IMG/VR virus record: IMGVR_UViG_3300035199_000350
Coordinates: 1-24,308 of that record
Source of the DNA: a virus
Length of the DNA: 24,308 bases
Direction: 5' to 3' (one strand)
Of this stretch, positions 836-22,164 are shown one piece after another. The position numbers and the translations under genes were made by a program. Position 1 is the first letter of the stretch. Each line of letters starts with the position of its first letter. Below the pieces are notes generated by a model. That model had not been told where the DNA came from, made no database searches, and was given only the letters and a program-made list of their open reading frames with translations.

Positions 836-958
836 GGGCACCTTGTACCCCCATGCTTGATCTATTGCAATCATATATACGCGAATGGCCGACATCGGCG
901 GTCGAGTATCCGCATTCTGCGGGGTCAACTGTGAGGACCGTGCCGAGGAGACCAGTAC
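836..958. promoter_or_regulatory. divergent intergenic control region with palindromes
   Basis: This gap separates the leftward cassette from the whole rightward module, so promoters for at least one direction are expected here. It holds a locally AT-rich patch (about 857-879, including ATATATA) in otherwise GC-rich DNA. It also has a perfect 8-base palindrome ATTGCAAT (864-871), a dyad GCCGA-CA-TCGGC (888-899) and a hairpin-capable CCGCA-TTC-TGCGG (910-922). I tested TTG-type -35 boxes against TATATA/TATGAT-type -10 boxes on both strands and found no pair at 16-18 base spacing, so a host sigma-70 promoter is not convincingly visible. The palindromes are candidate operators for the adjacent ribbon-helix-helix protein. 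Confidence 0.55.
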
Positions 959-7308: not shown

Positions 7309-7469
7309 TGCCCCTCATGTTGGTCCATCGTCACTTCGCTGCCCGGCGTAAGGGCGTGACGATGGGGTGGGAGCCCGGGCTTCGTCCGGGTGTATATCAA
7401 CACGGGATCTTCGCGGCCCGGCGTAAGGGCGATGCCGTCGAGATGGGAGGAACTGCTGATGTCCGATGA
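7308..7469 (+). CDS. possible 53-aa protein with repeated FAARRKG motif
   Basis: An ATG at 7308 overlaps the portal TAA (TAATG) and reads 53 codons to a TGA at 7467, overlapping the start of the scaffold gene by 11 bases. The product contains HFAARRKGV near residue 9 and IFAARRKGD 25 residues later, because two copies of a 22-base direct repeat lie exactly 75 bases apart and so stay in frame. The overlap with the portal stop fits the coupling seen elsewhere. No family is recognised. The alternative is that this is a non-coding structured leader, since both repeats form the same small hairpin. Confidence 0.4.
   Translation: MPLMLVHRHFAARRKGVTMGWEPGLRPGVYQHGIFAARRKGDAVEMGGTADVR
7335..7431 (+). 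promoter_or_regulatory. repeated small hairpins between portal and scaffold genes
   Basis: Two copies of a 22-base direct repeat (7335-7356 and 7410-7431, one mismatch) each form the hairpin GCCC-GGCGTAA-GGGC with an identical seven-base loop (7341-7355 and 7416-7430). Between them CCCGG and CCGGG (7374-7378 and 7386-7390) can form a third hairpin, extendable by a G-T pair. The group ends 15 bases before the GGAGG of the scaffold gene. Repeated identical loops upstream of a scaffold and capsid pair are a candidate protein-binding RNA operator. No T-tract follows, so these are not intrinsic terminators. Confidence 0.45.
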
Positions 7470-9506: not shown

Positions 9507-9521
9507 TCGAGGGGCGAACTT

Positions 9522-9565
9522 CTCCCCGGGTCGTCCTTGGTGGCGGCCCGGGGGGTCCAAGGAGG
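9522..9565 (+). promoter_or_regulatory. long hairpin after the major capsid gene, overlapping an alternative fold with the next ribosome binding site
   Basis: Bases 9522-9535 pair with 9542-9555 around a six-base loop, giving 14 contiguous pairs including four G-T wobbles and a perfect CCCCGGG/CCCGGGG core. Alternatively CCTTGG (9535-9540) pairs with CCAAGG (9557-9562), which covers part of the AAGGAGG ribosome binding site (9559-9565) of the next gene. The two folds share base 9535 and the right arm region, so they compete. No run of T follows, so this is not a standard intrinsic terminator. It may protect the capsid mRNA end or tune translation of the next gene. Confidence 0.65.
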
Positions 9566-9568
9566 CTC

Positions 9569-15255: not shown

Positions 15256-16748
15256 TGGCCTACAGTCCCGTGAAATATGGCCTGATGAGTGGCGTCGGCC
15301 GAGGTCTTGGCAGGGCCGGCGAGTCAATCGCCCGCGGGATGATGGCGGGGTACGCCCGTGACGAGCGCGAGAGGGTTCGCGCCGAGGATCTGCGTCGCTA
15401 CGAAGCCCAGCGCACCCTGGAGGCCGCCCGCCACAAGGAGCGGCTTGACCGGCAGGAGGAGTTGGACCGCCGGAGTGCCTTCGGGTTGCAGCAGAAGTTC
15501 CTCACGGAACCAAAAGACCCGGCGCAGATCGAGTCATACATGAAGGAGTTTCAGCGGCGGGGAATTACCGGTGCGTCGGATCCTGGGACGTTGGGTCCCA
15601 CGCGCATGCCCGAAGTCCCCATGTACGAGGACGTTCGGGTCCCGTATGACATCGAGGCCGTCAGGGAACCGATGGGGCCTTCAGAAGTGCCGGGTCCCCT
15701 CGTAACTCCCACCGAGGAACAGATCAATCTGATGCGAACGCTTGGCGTTCCGCTTGACAAGTTTGGAGATCCGCACGCCTCTGCCTACGGGTACAAATTG
15801 GCGGGGTCTGAACCCATTGAGTTTGGCGATGTGATCGAGAGCCAGGTTCGACGTCCTCCAATTCCCGCGCAGGCTGGATACAGGACGGAGCAGCGGTTCA
15901 ACCCCCTTGGCGGCCCTGCCTACGACGCTCCCCCCACGCAGCCGATGGCGAGGGGTGCCTATGATGCGCTCATGGCGAGGCGGGAGGCGGAAGAAGCCGA
16001 ACTTCATCGCAAGACCCGAGGCGATCTGGCCTCGATGATCGGCAAGGTTGCCCCCCTTGTGGCCGCAGAGGTCACGCAGGAGGGGCACGTTGATGAGCCG
16101 GTCACACCGGAGCACTACCGAGACCTTGTGAGGCGATCGAGGGAGGAGGAGTTGTGGCGAACGAAGGCCAACGAGGCGGCCAAGGTCGTCGCCAGGAGGG
16201 CTGCGTCTCGCGGCAAGCACCGCATCGACCTTCTCAATGGCTACGCTAGTTTCATTTCCAAGTCCCTTCGCAACAACGACAAGGCCGGATTGACTGCCGG
16301 AGTCGTGGAGATGCGCCGCCTGATCGGCGGAGACGAGAAGGACAGCGTGTCGGCCGCCGAGGACATCTGGGGGGCAAAGGCGTCCAAGGACCGCACTCAA
16401 CTCGGAAGGGTGATGTGGACCACGACCGCCCCTGTCTTACGGGATGAGATCCGAACGGCCAACGCACAGATTCGTGCCCTGGTGGGCCAACCAGCGGCGC
16501 TGCTCACCCAGGCGGGCAGGGATGAGATCGGCCAGCTTCGCGGTTCCGTCTCCAGGGCCAAGAACGAGTTGAAGCGGCTGGGGCATCAAGCCGGGTTGTC
16601 ACCGGAGGTCATCACCCTGGAGATCGACGCTGGCCCGAAGTCCGAGGACGACTTCCTCGGTCTTGCCAAGCAGTGGGCTGACACCTGGGGTCTGACACTG
16701 GAGCAGTCCGCCGATCGGCTCCGCGACATGGGCTACGAGATCGAGTAG
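15255..16748 (+). CDS. internal virion protein, 497 aa
   Basis: The ATG overlaps the previous TGA by one base (TGATG). The N-terminus (YSPVKYGLMSGVGRGLGRAG to RGMMAGYARDERERV) is Gly/Arg-rich and amphipathic. A long Arg/Glu coiled coil follows (about 35-80, EDLRRYEAQRTLEAARHKER). The middle is Pro/Gly-rich linker, and the C-terminal half is helical with Ala/Arg segments and ends SADRLRDMGYEIE. The arrangement resembles the second internal core protein of podoviruses, which joins a trans-envelope conduit. No enzyme motif is visible. It overlaps the giant gene downstream by one base (TAGTG). Confidence 0.7.
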   Translation: MAYSPVKYGLMSGVGRGLGRAGESIARGMMAGYARDERERVRAEDLRRYEAQRTLEAARHKERLDRQEELDRRSAFGLQQKFLTEPKDPAQIESYMKEFQRRGITGASDPGTLGPTRMPEVPMYEDVRVPYDIEAVREPMGPSEVPGPLVTPTEEQINLMRTLGVPLDKFGDPHASAYGYKLAGSEPIEFGDVIESQVRRPPIPAQAGYRTEQRFNPLGGPAYDAPPTQPMARGAYDALMARREAEEAELHRKTRGDLASMIGKVAPLVAAEVTQEGHVDEPVTPEHYRDLVRRSREEELWRTKANEAAKVVARRAASRGKHRIDLLNGYASFISKSLRNNDKAGLTAGVVEMRRLIGGDEKDSVSAAEDIWGAKASKDRTQLGRVMWTTTAPVLRDEIRTANAQIRALVGQPAALLTQAGRDEIGQLRGSVSRAKNELKRLGHQAGLSPEVITLEIDAGPKSEDDFLGLAKQWADTWGLTLEQSADRLRDMGYEIE

Positions 16749-19700
16749 TGGCTGATCCCGTCACCCTAGACTCGTACAGGTCGAGCCAACAGGCGGGAAC
16801 GGCATACAACCCAGAGCAGTTGCGGGTTCTGGAGTCGATGGGCGTGTCTGTCGAACCGGGCGTTCACGAACTGGCTTCGCAACAGTTGGCCGCGGTGGAG
16901 GGCTTCGCAGAGAAGGAGCGAAGTCGGGCGCAAAAGGCCAAGGAGACGATCAGGCAGGCCGAGTCGGACGCCAAGGCCCCCCTGGTTCCTACGGCAAGGA
17001 TGGGGCTTGGTGCGGAGGGACTGCGCCGCCGAAAGGATCAAGAGAGGCAGAAGCAGCAAGCGAAGGTTGTGCTTGAGTCGCAGCTTCCAGATGTACAGAG
17101 GGCCACCCTGTACGGGGCGAGGAAGATGCTTTCCAATGCCATGCGGGAGAAGGCTTCCGCAAAGTCGTTCGGGGAGGTGCTCAACAACGTGGCGGAGTTG
17201 GCGCTGCACAACAAGAAGCACGGGCCTCCTCTCGGTGGCGAGAAGGCGGAGTGGAACTACCCGGAGTTGGACGAGTTCCTGGCCGAAGCCTATGTGCGAC
17301 TGCCTCCGCTCAGGGAGGATCGTGGCGGCTTCCTGTCCAAGTATTACATGGCCCCCGGCTCCATCGAGCGGCAGAGGGGCAAGGACGAGACCACGATCGA
17401 GTGGTTGGCGAAGGGCATGGGGATCTTCTCCAGGGTCACGACGGAGACGATGGCGAAACTCGCCGGGGCCAAGGACACCGACGTGGTGTTGGCCTACGAA
17501 AACGCCAAAGGCCACGAGATGCCAGGCATCCGCTTCTCGGAGCAGGTGCCAGAGTTGGTCGAGGCCGTTGAGGACGCCCTGACCCCGAAGGCGATGGAGA
17601 AACCCCACCCGGAGGAACTTGCTGCGTGGCGCAGGCGTTACGAAGCAGGAGAGGTCCCAACGCCAGAGCCGCCAAGTCGTGTGATAAGCAGGCCCGTTTC
17701 CGATGAGGAGCGTGTTGAGATCAAGGAGAAGGCCCAGGCGTATGTCGCCCTTGGTGCGGAGATGCTGTTTGATCCGACTTGGTTTGTCGGCTTTGGCGAG
17801 GGTTCCAAGGCGATGCAAGCCACAAGACAGGTGGCGCGGGCACTGACCAAGGCCGGGTTGGACCCGAAACTCGTCCGAAGGATGGTGAAGGAGACCAAGA
17901 AGAACATGCGGGAGGCCCCGGAGCGAGAGACTGCGCTCAAGGAGGCCCACGACTTGTTCGATCTTGGCGTGGATGAGGTCAAGAAGGGCGAGTGGGAGCA
18001 CGCCGACGAGGGCCTGAATTGGGCGGCCAGGAACGTCACGGAGGAGACGACCAGAGTTGTTCTGGAGGAGTCCAGAGACGCCCTGGCAAGGCTGTCCATC
18101 CACGACGCCAGAGACGAGATCGCCGGCATCCTTCGCAACCGCGTGGGTGATGCCCCGGCCGAGTACCTTATGAACAAGGTGGGGCCGTCCTTCGGAAAGG
18201 CTGGCATCGTGGGCGTTGCCCCATTCCGGGGGGAACCCATCGCGGAGATCGTGCCCCGGGAGGTGTTGCGCCAGGGCAAAGAGTGGGGTCAGCAGGCGGC
18301 GTGGTGGATGCGTCGGCAGTACAGGCGTGGTGCGGCGAAGGCGATGGGCAAGAAGATCGACGCCGACATTTTCCAGACGGCGGTGCGGCGCAAGCGCAAC
18401 CGGATGATCTCGTCAGTGGCGCACAGTTACACCCGGTCCTTCTCGCACCTGATGGACAATCAGGCGGATTGGGCGGCCAACACGCTACTTGAGCGCGTTT
18501 ACGGGCCGGCGATACGAGGCGAGTTGGAGCATCTGCCTCCGGGGGCGACCCGGGCGGCCAGAACGGCGCAGGCCGACGAGCGGGTGGAGTTGGCAACCTA
18601 TCTTGCGGACGCCCTTGGGCTGTCCATCCCCGCAGCGAGAAGGACGGCAATCCTCCGCTTTGCAGAGCGCCTAGAGAAGTCCTCCGTGGCAGACAAGATG
18701 AACCGTATCGCCCCGGACCTTGAGGCGTTGGCGGACGGCAAGTGGCCTGACTACCTCAAGCAGTCATCCATCAAGGACCCCACCCTTGTCGTGCCAGATG
18801 TCGCCTTCAAGAATGAGGAGTTCCGCGGCATCGTGGACAAGTACCAGGGATTTCTGGACTCGGCGTTGCGGGAGACTGCCTATGTGGGGAGGGAGGTTGG
18901 GCGCAGATACAAGAAGGAGGTCCGAGAGGCGGCCGGCAGGACGTGGGCGGACTGGAACAAGAAGTTCCTAGAGACCGTTCCTGACGAGTTCAGGCAGGCG
19001 TGGGGGGAGAAGCGCACCAATGAAATCAGAGACCTGATCCGGTGGTCGGTCAACACCGAGGCCGCCCAACTCAAGGAGGCGTTGATGAACGGCATCGACA
19101 TCGCTGAGAGGAAGGATTATTGGGTCTCGGTCCTGAACAACACGGAGGCGGTGCTCTCTGATGTGGGGTTCAAGCGAAGTTCCGCCGGCCGAGTGGACCC
19201 GGGCGGTCCGTCTCCGATGCAGCAGAAGAAGCTGACAATGGCGGAACAGATCGGGAGCCTGCTCTCCCCGGAGCGGGACATACTCAAGATGGCAGTTGCC
19301 AGCAGCGTCGCCCACAACCGGATGATCATGGAATCCCGCATGAACACGGAACTTGTCCGCAAGTTCGGTCGTCCCGTGGCAACCAAGGGCGAGGCGCAGC
19401 GCATGGGGGAGGTGCTGGTCGACTGGAGGCGCAAGGGCAAGGGCGGTAAGTGGGAACCCCAGACCTACGCCGTGCCTTCGTGGATGAAGGACAAGATGGA
19501 CGAGGTGCTGGGCATCATAGACGGCACCAACCTCCCCGGTAGCGCCTTTACCCGCAAGGCCAACGCCTTCCTGCGGTCAGTCTACACGTCGCCCAATCCT
19601 GGCTTTCATATCCGCAACGAACTTTCGTCCACCATACTTTCGTATGTCCTGGGCAACGTAAGAGACCCGAGGCGTTATGCCCAGTCGTATCTCGCTGCGG

Positions 19701-21133
19701 CACTTCCCAGGACGGAACAGGGTTGGCAGGCCATAACCAAGCAGGCCCTAGACATCAAGGACCCCGCCCGGCGAAAGGTGGCGTTGTACTACGCCCGTAA
19801 GATGGAGGGCGCACTTCGCACTGTCGGCGGCTGGACCATCACGCAGAAGGGAACTGGTCGCAAGGCCACCCTCCAAGACATGGCGAATTGGGCGGCCGAG
19901 GACGGGGCGATCAACAAGGGTTGGTCAAGTGTTGACACCGCTGGGTCGATGCTTGAGGAGGTCGAAATGGCGACCCGCAGCCCACTGTCTCGATTCCTGC
20001 GACAGAACGCAGCTTCGGCTGGCTTGGGCACCGCCGGAGGGCTAGCCGGAGGACCGCCGGGCGCTGCCTTTGGAGCGGGGGTTGGGCAACTCATCGGTCC
20101 CGACACCGTGCTGATGAAGGTCGGAAAGGCGACAGGCGAGGTGGTGGAGAACCACCAACGGCTCACGGTTTACATGGACACATGGGCGAAGGGTGGCAGC
20201 AGGATACAGGCCAAGGAGGCCGCCGATTATGCCCACCACGTCTACCGCAGAATGACGCCAACGGATCAGTCCATTCGCGAGCAGGTTCTATTCTGGAACT
20301 GGATCCGAAACAACTTGCCCAAGATGGTCAAGCAGGTGGTCAAACGCCCTGGGCAGATGGTGGCGTTGGAAAAGGGGAAGCGTGCCATCGAGGCTGGATC
20401 AGCGGAGAACTGGAAGGGGGTTTTGGACGACGAGTTGCCCCGATACTACCGCCGGATGATGGGCGTAAAGACGCCAATGACGGGAAGGGGTGGGTCCAAG
20501 TTTGTGTTGGCTTTCGATGATCCAAGAAGGGACCTGAACCTGCTTGACGCCGACGTGGACGACTTGGGGGACAATCTTTTTGGGATGCTCACGCCTGTTT
20601 GGCAGATGACCTACAACGCCCTCCAGCACATGATGGGGGAGGATCTGTCTATATGGGGGCAGAGGGGTCGCAAGGTCCGAAGGCGTCCTGTAGAGCTTCC
20701 TCGGTGGCTCATGGCGGCCCCGAAGGCGGCCCGAAGGGCGATGGGTGCTCGACCGGCGAAGGACTGGATTGGTGCGGACTTGGTGGGTGATGACGTTGTT
20801 CCTGGGCGAGAGTACATCGACGCCAGGACCCTGCACATGATCAACGAACTTCCAATGTTCCTGCGGTTGAGCAAGCAGCCTGTGGAGTTCGATCTTACCG
20901 AGCAAGAGAAGGCGCAGATCGTTGAGAAGGTCGGTCCTCGGGCCCTTATGACGGCCAGTGACAAGGACCGGCTAGGGCGCAACGCCTATCTGTGGGGCGT
21001 CAGAATGTACGCCTTCGATCAGGCCAAGGAGAAGGAGGGCACCCTCATGCGCTTGCGCCAGAGGGCCCGTCAGGCAAAGCAGGGCGTGAACTTGCCCGTG
21101 GCGATGGAGCCCGTCCGTGAGATCCCGGAGTAA
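16748..21133 (+). CDS. very large internal virion / ejection protein, 1461 aa
   Basis: The start is GTG at 16748 in a TAGTG overlap. The protein is almost entirely helical. The N-terminal 80 residues are coiled coil (EKERSRAQKAKETIRQAESD), and several Arg/Lys/Glu-rich segments follow. Around residues 940-965, SVYTSPNPGFHIRNELSST resembles the short conserved P-x-F-x-x-R-N segments of large polyvalent phage proteins. Residues about 1089-1117 form a glycine-zipper-like stretch (GLGTAGGLAGGPPGAAFGAG) of the kind that inserts in membranes. A VFENHQRL-like segment and WNWIRNNLPKMVKQVVKRPG follow. I see no lytic transglycosylase or lysozyme catalytic motif. It is the third and biggest of three ejection-type genes, comparable in size and place to T7 gp16 but not evidently homologous. 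Confidence 0.75.
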   Translation: MADPVTLDSYRSSQQAGTAYNPEQLRVLESMGVSVEPGVHELASQQLAAVEGFAEKERSRAQKAKETIRQAESDAKAPLVPTARMGLGAEGLRRRKDQERQKQQAKVVLESQLPDVQRATLYGARKMLSNAMREKASAKSFGEVLNNVAELALHNKKHGPPLGGEKAEWNYPELDEFLAEAYVRLPPLREDRGGFLSKYYMAPGSIERQRGKDETTIEWLAKGMGIFSRVTTETMAKLAGAKDTDVVLAYENAKGHEMPGIRFSEQVPELVEAVEDALTPKAMEKPHPEELAAWRRRYEAGEVPTPEPPSRVISRPVSDEERVEIKEKAQAYVALGAEMLFDPTWFVGFGEGSKAMQATRQVARALTKAGLDPKLVRRMVKETKKNMREAPERETALKEAHDLFDLGVDEVKKGEWEHADEGLNWAARNVTEETTRVVLEESRDALARLSIHDARDEIAGILRNRVGDAPAEYLMNKVGPSFGKAGIVGVAPFRGEPIAEIVPREVLRQGKEWGQQAAWWMRRQYRRGAAKAMGKKIDADIFQTAVRRKRNRMISSVAHSYTRSFSHLMDNQADWAANTLLERVYGPAIRGELEHLPPGATRAARTAQADERVELATYLADALGLSIPAARRTAILRFAERLEKSSVADKMNRIAPDLEALADGKWPDYLKQSSIKDPTLVVPDVAFKNEEFRGIVDKYQGFLDSALRETAYVGREVGRRYKKEVREAAGRTWADWNKKFLETVPDEFRQAWGEKRTNEIRDLIRWSVNTEAAQLKEALMNGIDIAERKDYWVSVLNNTEAVLSDVGFKRSSAGRVDPGGPSPMQQKKLTMAEQIGSLLSPERDILKMAVASSVAHNRMIMESRMNTELVRKFGRPVATKGEAQRMGEVLVDWRRKGKGGKWEPQTYAVPSWMKDKMDEVLGIIDGTNLPGSAFTRKANAFLRSVYTSPNPGFHIRNELSSTILSYVLGNVRDPRRYAQSYLAAALPRTEQGWQAITKQALDIKDPARRKVALYYARKMEGALRTVGGWTITQKGTGRKATLQDMANWAAEDGAINKGWSSVDTAGSMLEEVEMATRSPLSRFLRQNAASAGLGTAGGLAGGPPGAAFGAGVGQLIGPDTVLMKVGKATGEVVENHQRLTVYMDTWAKGGSRIQAKEAADYAHHVYRRMTPTDQSIREQVLFWNWIRNNLPKMVKQVVKRPGQMVALEKGKRAIEAGSAENWKGVLDDELPRYYRRMMGVKTPMTGRGGSKFVLAFDDPRRDLNLLDADVDDLGDNLFGMLTPVWQMTYNALQHMMGEDLSIWGQRGRKVRRRPVELPRWLMAAPKAARRAMGARPAKDWIGADLVGDDVVPGREYIDARTLHMINELPMFLRLSKQPVEFDLTEQEKAQIVEKVGPRALMTASDKDRLGRNAYLWGVRMYAFDQAKEKEGTLMRLRQRARQAKQGVNLPVAMEPVREIPE

Positions 21134-21237
21134 TGTAGTAGAGTAGGACAGACAGGCCGCTCTCGGAGCGAAAGCCGGTACCCTCTTGGGCGCTGGGGGC
21201 GGCAAACCCGAAAGCCAAGAGGGCAAGGTAAGGGTTG
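21134..21237 (+). promoter_or_regulatory. structured leader before the 308-aa gene
   Basis: This 104-base gap is the longest spacer inside the rightward run. It contains CGCTC-TCG-GAGCG (21158-21170), enclosed by GGC and GCC (21155-21157 and 21174-21176). It also contains a perfect nine-pair stem CCCTCTTGG/CCAAGAGGG (21181-21189 and 21215-21223) around a 25-base loop. The seven-base GAAAGCC occurs twice (21170-21176 and 21210-21216), once beside each stem. AAGGTAAGGG then precedes the ATG at 21238. No T-run follows the stems. Either a protein-binding or self-regulating 5-prime leader or a processed RNA is possible, and a promoter upstream cannot be excluded. Confidence 0.6.
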
Positions 21238-22164
21238 ATGGCGAATCCCCAGAGCAGGTTCCGCGTTCACAAGGGTCGGGTGATTGGTCCCGACATGGCG
21301 AACGTGTATTCCAACGCGGTCCAGACGGTGGCTACTCAGGGCCATGTGAACTTGGACAACTTCCCTTCGGTGAGGTCGGGCAGTTCTGCCGACACTCACG
21401 GTCACGTCTTGCAGGTTCTCGACATCAAGAACGATTCGGGTGCAGACGGGCGTGTGTACATCGGCGGTCAGTTCGTTGCCACGACGACGAACCCTGCCAC
21501 GGGGGTGACGGAGAACGACTACCTCTGGGGCGCTGGTCAGTGGAACGACAGTACCGGCGGCGCAGACGACCTCACGGACGACTCCGTGCATGCCAAGGAT
21601 GCGGCGGCCAACGACTTCCATCTCCTGCCGGCCGCCGGTGCCGCTGCCAATGACGGCTTCGTCGTCCACTCGACGCGTCAGTTTTCCTGCATCGTGGTCG
21701 CCATCGGCGCTACGCCGCAGGTCAACCACGTCAACACGGTTCAGACCTACACCTACTGGAACGGTTCGTCCTGGGCTGCGTTGCCGCTTCTGAATACGGC
21801 ACCTTTGTACTCGGTGGCGAACACGGACTACTCGGTGATCTTCGGCAAGCCTCTGGATTGGGCCCTGACGACCACCACGGGCCCCGCCGAGGGCGTCCCT
21901 GCGGGTCGCTACGCCATTCGCTATCAGGCGACGAACACGGTCCCCGGCACGGTTGGCATCGCCTCCCGCTTGTTCGTGGGCGACGTGCTGCGCTACCCGG
22001 CGAGCTTGGTCCCCAACGGTGGGGCCCTTGTGGCGAACGACATTGGCTGGCCCATTTCGTCGCAGGACGAGGCTCCTTGGGCGGTGCTAGGCGTCTCCGC
22101 CGCTGCGTGGGAGATCGCCGTGGGCACGGAGCGGACGCCGTTCGCCGGCACGCTGGGGGCCTAG
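21238..22164 (+). CDS. beta-rich virion-region protein of unknown function, 308 aa
   Basis: The ATG at 21238 follows AAGGTAAGGG and is preferred over the TTG one codon earlier. The protein starts MANPQSRFRVHKGRVIGPDM. It is rich in Thr, Ser, Gly, Ala and Val with few lysines, suggesting a beta-sheet surface protein. Segments such as TQGHVNLDNFPSVRSGSSAD, SDGRVYIGGQF-like strands and TYTYWNGSSWAALPLLN suggest repeated beta hairpins. The C-terminus is ISSQDEAPWAVLGVSAAAWE to GTLGA. No family is recognised. Strong GC-ending codon bias and a structured leader suggest high expression, so head decoration or a fiber subunit is plausible. It is followed after three bases by a fiber-like gene. Confidence 0.65.
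   Translation: MANPQSRFRVHKGRVIGPDMANVYSNAVQTVATQGHVNLDNFPSVRSGSSADTHGHVLQVLDIKNDSGADGRVYIGGQFVATTTNPATGVTENDYLWGAGQWNDSTGGADDLTDDSVHAKDAAANDFHLLPAAGAAANDGFVVHSTRQFSCIVVAIGATPQVNHVNTVQTYTYWNGSSWAALPLLNTAPLYSVANTDYSVIFGKPLDWALTTTTGPAEGVPAGRYAIRYQATNTVPGTVGIASRLFVGDVLRYPASLVPNGGALVANDIGWPISSQDEAPWAVLGVSAAAWEIAVGTERTPFAGTLGA

Follow-up and report, generated by a model that had tools for sequence, protein, structure and literature searches.

A start-proximal hairpin in a 104-nt phage spacer, and a recurrent RNA motif, R1, in another spacer of the same gene run

The scaffolding protein of phage P22 is reported to limit its own synthesis post-transcriptionally. In phage T4, the translational operators of gene 43 (a hairpin) and gene 32 (a pseudoknot) bind the products of their own genes, and they have counterparts in RB69 (PMC3014915). 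A T4 review adds that, among viral pseudoknots, the one in gene 32 may be the only known case that acts in translational autoregulation (PMC3014915). The spacer described here resembles the T4 operators in that RNA structure lies upstream of a phage start codon, and a pseudoknot is possible in its larger hairpin (hairpin 2). However, the T4 operators have counterparts in RB69, whereas this leader is absent from relatives.

The spacer and its flanking genes

The window, meaning the whole stretch of DNA analyzed, is an IMG/VR virus record of 24,308 bases. Its structural gene run is P22/SU10-like, with genes for terminase, portal, a scaffold-like protein, the major capsid protein, more virion proteins, and endolysin. 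An earlier note on this DNA had singled out the long gaps in the run, and its layout was borne out: the long clean spacers are 150, 62, and 104 nt. The last of these is the subject here (Table 1). It begins after the TAA stop of a giant gene, and its length is 104 nt because homologues beginning at the same residue settle where it ends on the right; alignment with homologues beginning MPNP or MANQ backs the ATG at 21238. The coordinates first proposed for the spacer therefore hold.

Table 1. Positions of the main features in the window
Feature	Position	Strand	Description
R1 copies	7326-7364, 7401-7439	+	Hairpin motif, outer stem with strong covariation
Giant gene, upstream of spacer	16748-21133	+	1461 aa; TAA stop at 21131-21133; distant homologues in G006 and L015
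Spacer (leader)	21134-21237	+	104 nt; separates the giant gene from the 308-aa gene
Hairpin 1	21155-21176	+	GGC-CGCTC-TCG-GAGCG-AAA-GCC; weak significance
Hairpin 2	21181-21223	+	Stem CCCTCTTGG/CCAAGAGGG, perfect 9 bp, arms 21181-21189 and 21215-21223; 25-nt loop
Competing minimum-energy fold	21156-21236	+	Pairs 21156-21166 with 21193-21203 and 21205-21209 with 21232-21236
Shine-Dalgarno region AAGGTAAGGG	21225-21234	+	Directly outside hairpin 2
Downstream gene	21238-22164	+	308 aa, beta-rich, probably a tail-associated virion protein; distant relatives at 33 IMG/VR loci

The giant gene had no family match. The product of the gene at 21238 has a beta-rich predicted structure (pLDDT 75.6), as the earlier note had expected. 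Among solved structures, the best match to it is one chain from a phage portal-tail complex, and "tail-associated" is a weak assignment because the TM-score is only 0.35. No protein relatives of it were found in cultured phages. The high codon bias that had been attributed to this gene turned out to be ordinary, with an effective codon number of 40.4; the major capsid gene has 35.7 and the portal gene 40.0.

A scan of Rfam (4227 models), as the earlier note had suggested, gave no match to the spacer at the gathering score or at E values up to 10. That note had not matched the leader to a known class either, and for lack of an Rfam match a riboswitch or other known RNA family was rejected. The spacer contained no tRNA or tmRNA, it had no DNA relatives worth counting in cultured phages, and an exact 18-nt core from it had no match in IMG/VR. 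We also considered stop-codon readthrough, since the giant gene can be extended in frame 0 past its stop to a new stop that overlaps the ATG as TGATG. This was rejected as chance: 11% of shuffles also have an open frame 0, and the peptide is unlike the giant protein.

The hairpin before the 21238 gene

Two clear stems had been reported in the spacer, each beside a copy of a repeat box. The perfect 9-bp stem of hairpin 2 is real and rare. When 104-nt spacers were shuffled, 0.85% gained a perfect stem of at least 9 bp (0.3% when counted in a slightly different way), and the whole window has only two such stems with loops of 40 nt or less, both intergenic. Folded alone, hairpin 2 has a z score of -2.5, and its energy ranks among the lowest 0.6% for 49-nt stretches. 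Hairpin 1, however, is at chance level (z score, -0.96). The box CGAAAGCC does occur twice, at 21169 and 21209, but this is also at chance level, with an 8-mer direct repeat found in 10% of shuffles. The spacer as a whole folds no better than its shuffles (z score, -0.21), and its minimum-energy fold excludes both hairpins. The mean pair probability of hairpin 2 was 0.69 in the spacer alone and 0.08 to 0.29 in the three longest contexts tried, and in longer contexts it is not the dominant equilibrium fold. Being local, it could form first during transcription.

Relatives were collected from IMG/VR by three routes: through the portal protein, which gave only one contig that reaches the spacer region (G006); through the endolysin, which gave L014 and L015; and with a profile of the 21238 family, which gave the 33 loci of Table 1. 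Of the relatives in which both the giant gene and a 21238 homologue are kept, the two nearest are G006, at 37% protein identity, and L015, at 32%. In G006, 24 nt separate the giant gene from the homologous start. In L015, a 117-aa gene lies in between and is followed by 24 nt before the homologous start. Neither has a hairpin before that start, and no relative keeping the 21134-21237 spacer was found. The earlier note had in effect claimed a structured leader dedicated to the downstream gene and belonging to no recognized class, and had named missing conservation in relatives that keep that gene as the finding that would refute it. By that standard the claim fails, because G006 and L015 keep both flanking genes yet lack the leader. 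Nor do these two relatives, with their 24-nt spacers, keep the structure as would be expected of an autogenous operator. As judged from these comparisons, the hairpin 2 element appears to be lineage specific and not a conserved RNA family. The spacer was also compared with the small gene at the L015 junction, of which it might be a decayed remnant, and this idea was dropped when no similarity was seen by eye.

Among more distant members of the 21238 family, spacers are mostly shorter than 35 nt. Several members with long spacers have strong hairpins that are unrelated in sequence; in two of them (L042 and L059), the stem was reached in 0 of 300 shuffles. In these members the homology covers just a part of the protein and the neighboring genes are different, and therefore they bear on the pattern and not on homology of the leader. 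One of the homologues, in L046, is preceded by a terminator-like hairpin with TCTTTT after the stem. A hairpin of that kind, together with a location that has a very long gene on one side and a short virion gene on the other, would suit a site of transcript processing, attenuation, or new transcript initiation (RNase III-type cleavage, a partial terminator, or a phage promoter) that separates off the tail-gene transcript. However, there is no U-run after either stem (the tail is CAAGGTAAGG), and neither an intrinsic terminator nor a sigma-70-like promoter was found in the spacer. We consider such a site very improbable.

The recurrence of hairpins in phage spacers was surveyed in 91 same-strand spacers of 45 to 200 nt from the fetched phage contigs, with mechanical gene calls and with length-matched coding pieces as controls. 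Stems of at least 9 bp were present in 12% of the spacers (n = 11, one of which is the 21134-21237 hairpin itself) versus 0 of the 91 coding controls. In 8 of the 11, the stem ends 11 to 24 nt before the next start. Hairpin 2 has this start-proximal arrangement, with its 3' arm ending 14 nt before the ATG and the Shine-Dalgarno sequence outside the stem, as in the start-proximal hairpins of the survey. Those hairpins are unrelated in sequence between phages, and hairpin 2 differs from them in its long 25-nt loop.

One reading of the locus is that the spacer is neutral filler, either a lineage-specific insertion or decayed sequence, and that its stems have no function. This agrees with the unremarkable fold of the whole spacer, its absence from both close relatives, the chance-level repeat and open frame 0, and the existence of competing folds. 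But a perfect 9-bp stem beside a Shine-Dalgarno sequence is rare in shuffled spacers, and such stems are enriched near starts in phage spacers. Neutral filler is therefore an unlikely explanation in our judgment. We think it probable that this spacer is of an ordinary kind for a phage late operon and that it carries, close to the next start, an mRNA hairpin that tunes initiation or mRNA stability. The control of the 21238 gene that had been proposed is thus plausible in the form of a local start-proximal hairpin, which fits the recurrent spacer pattern, but not in the form of a dedicated conserved leader.

As for mechanism, hairpin 2 would leave the Shine-Dalgarno sequence unpaired beside its stem. 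Its most likely role would be to set the 21238 start site apart from the mRNA structure and the ribosome traffic that lie upstream, and it may also protect a processed 5' end. The virion gene at 21238 would then be initiated independently of the giant gene. These effects on translation or stability are what we infer from the position of the stem. A striking leader in one genome can prove to be an ordinary spacer hairpin after its relatives are checked. By itself the 21134 hairpin matters little, and its value is indirect: comparing it with other spacers exposed the motif described below.

The R1 motif and its relation to hairpin 2

The 7309-7458 spacer contains TTCGC[N]GCCCGGCGTAAGGGC twice, each time inside an outer stem. 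We call this motif R1. Its layout is P1, CGC, N, P2, GGCG..AA, P2', and P1', with the core UCGC-N-GCCC-(G/A)GCGUNAA-GGGC. Scanning for the exact pattern turned up the core in more IMG/VR contigs, and a relaxed scan added L062/L080. Beyond the window, R1 is present in divergent uncultured phages (L018, L009, L017/L020, L019, L026, and L062/L080). In a gap-free alignment of six divergent copies, 16 cells were changed on both sides of a pair compared with 5.8 in shuffles, and 0 of 500 shuffles reached this count. All 16 cells are in the outer stem, and slid controls collapsed. With ten distinct rows, the count was 25 versus 9.5, in an alignment that had been fitted to the model. Neither the inner stem nor a possible CGC/GCG pseudoknot ever varies, and therefore covariation is silent on both.

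R1 is located a short way downstream of the portal gene. In the window, L007, L009, and L062/L080, that portal gene is of the P22 type, and R1 is followed by a scaffold-like gene, which in turn lies upstream of the capsid gene. In L017/L020, L019, and L026, the portal gene is a phrog_1216 one, and R1 lies ahead of the first or second gene downstream of it. A strict match in L024 is located elsewhere and is probably due to chance. R1 had no match in Rfam and only partial, near-chance matches in cultured phages, and when core matches in bacterial genomes were scored, most looked like chance. R1 is apparently a new conserved RNA element. The covariation supports its outer stem, and we hypothesize that it is a scaffold autoregulatory operator. 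With such a motif in front of capsid-scaffold-like genes, control of scaffold synthesis at the RNA level would become open to direct tests. A second R1 core was seen in L009 (7165-7185), in frame within the first codons of the scaffold-like gene and 139 bases after the leader copy.

Hairpin 2 and R1 are alike in having a P1 hairpin that encloses CGC-N-P2-GGCG..AA-P2'. If hairpin 2 were a diverged R1 copy, then the two leaders could share a single trans-acting factor. The order of parts is the same: P1, CGC (21191-21193), U, GGG, GGCGGCAAA, CCC, and P1'. Across 0.89 Mb, a relaxed descriptor matched the R1 members, hairpin 2, and about five weaker sites attributable to chance, and such a likeness has a chance of about 0.2% for long spacers, a value computed after the fact. 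However, four layout parameters had to be relaxed, and the likeness itself was noticed after the fact. P2 is shorter than in R1 and differs in sequence, and there are five extra bases on its 3' side (GAAAG). The R1 core is not present in hairpin 2, which has CGC-U-GGG-GGCGGCAAA-CCC instead. The R1 covariance model gives 4.5 bits at 21180-21224 versus 32 to 52 bits for R1 members, and because of this score we do not count hairpin 2 as a member. Descent of hairpin 2 from an R1 copy is improbable. More doubtful still is a reading in which R1 is a new phage RNA operator, hairpin 2 is one of its diverged copies, and one phage protein coordinates capsid and tail gene translation at these shared RNA sites. 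If that were true, the two R1 copies before the scaffold-like gene and hairpin 2 would couple capsid and tail translation.

Three other places in the window drew attention. Positions 1-152 are 94% identical over 152 bases to L007 (4744-4895), with neighboring regions at about 70 to 78%; this likeness possibly reflects a recent exchange or a constrained element. A second conserved leader lies at 896-958 (+ strand), before the gene at 959. It consists of GGTCGAGTAT, a hairpin, and GGGGTCAACTGTGAGGACC, and this arrangement is near-invariant across L005, L007, L008, and L009, while the upstream sequence diverges. In the spacer after the capsid gene (9507-9568, + strand), a hairpin with the stem CCTTGG/CCAAGG includes part of the Shine-Dalgarno sequence AAGGAGG. 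This spacer has the lowest folding energy among the 49-nt stretches scanned in the window, and the equivalent spacer in L062 has a strong hairpin too.
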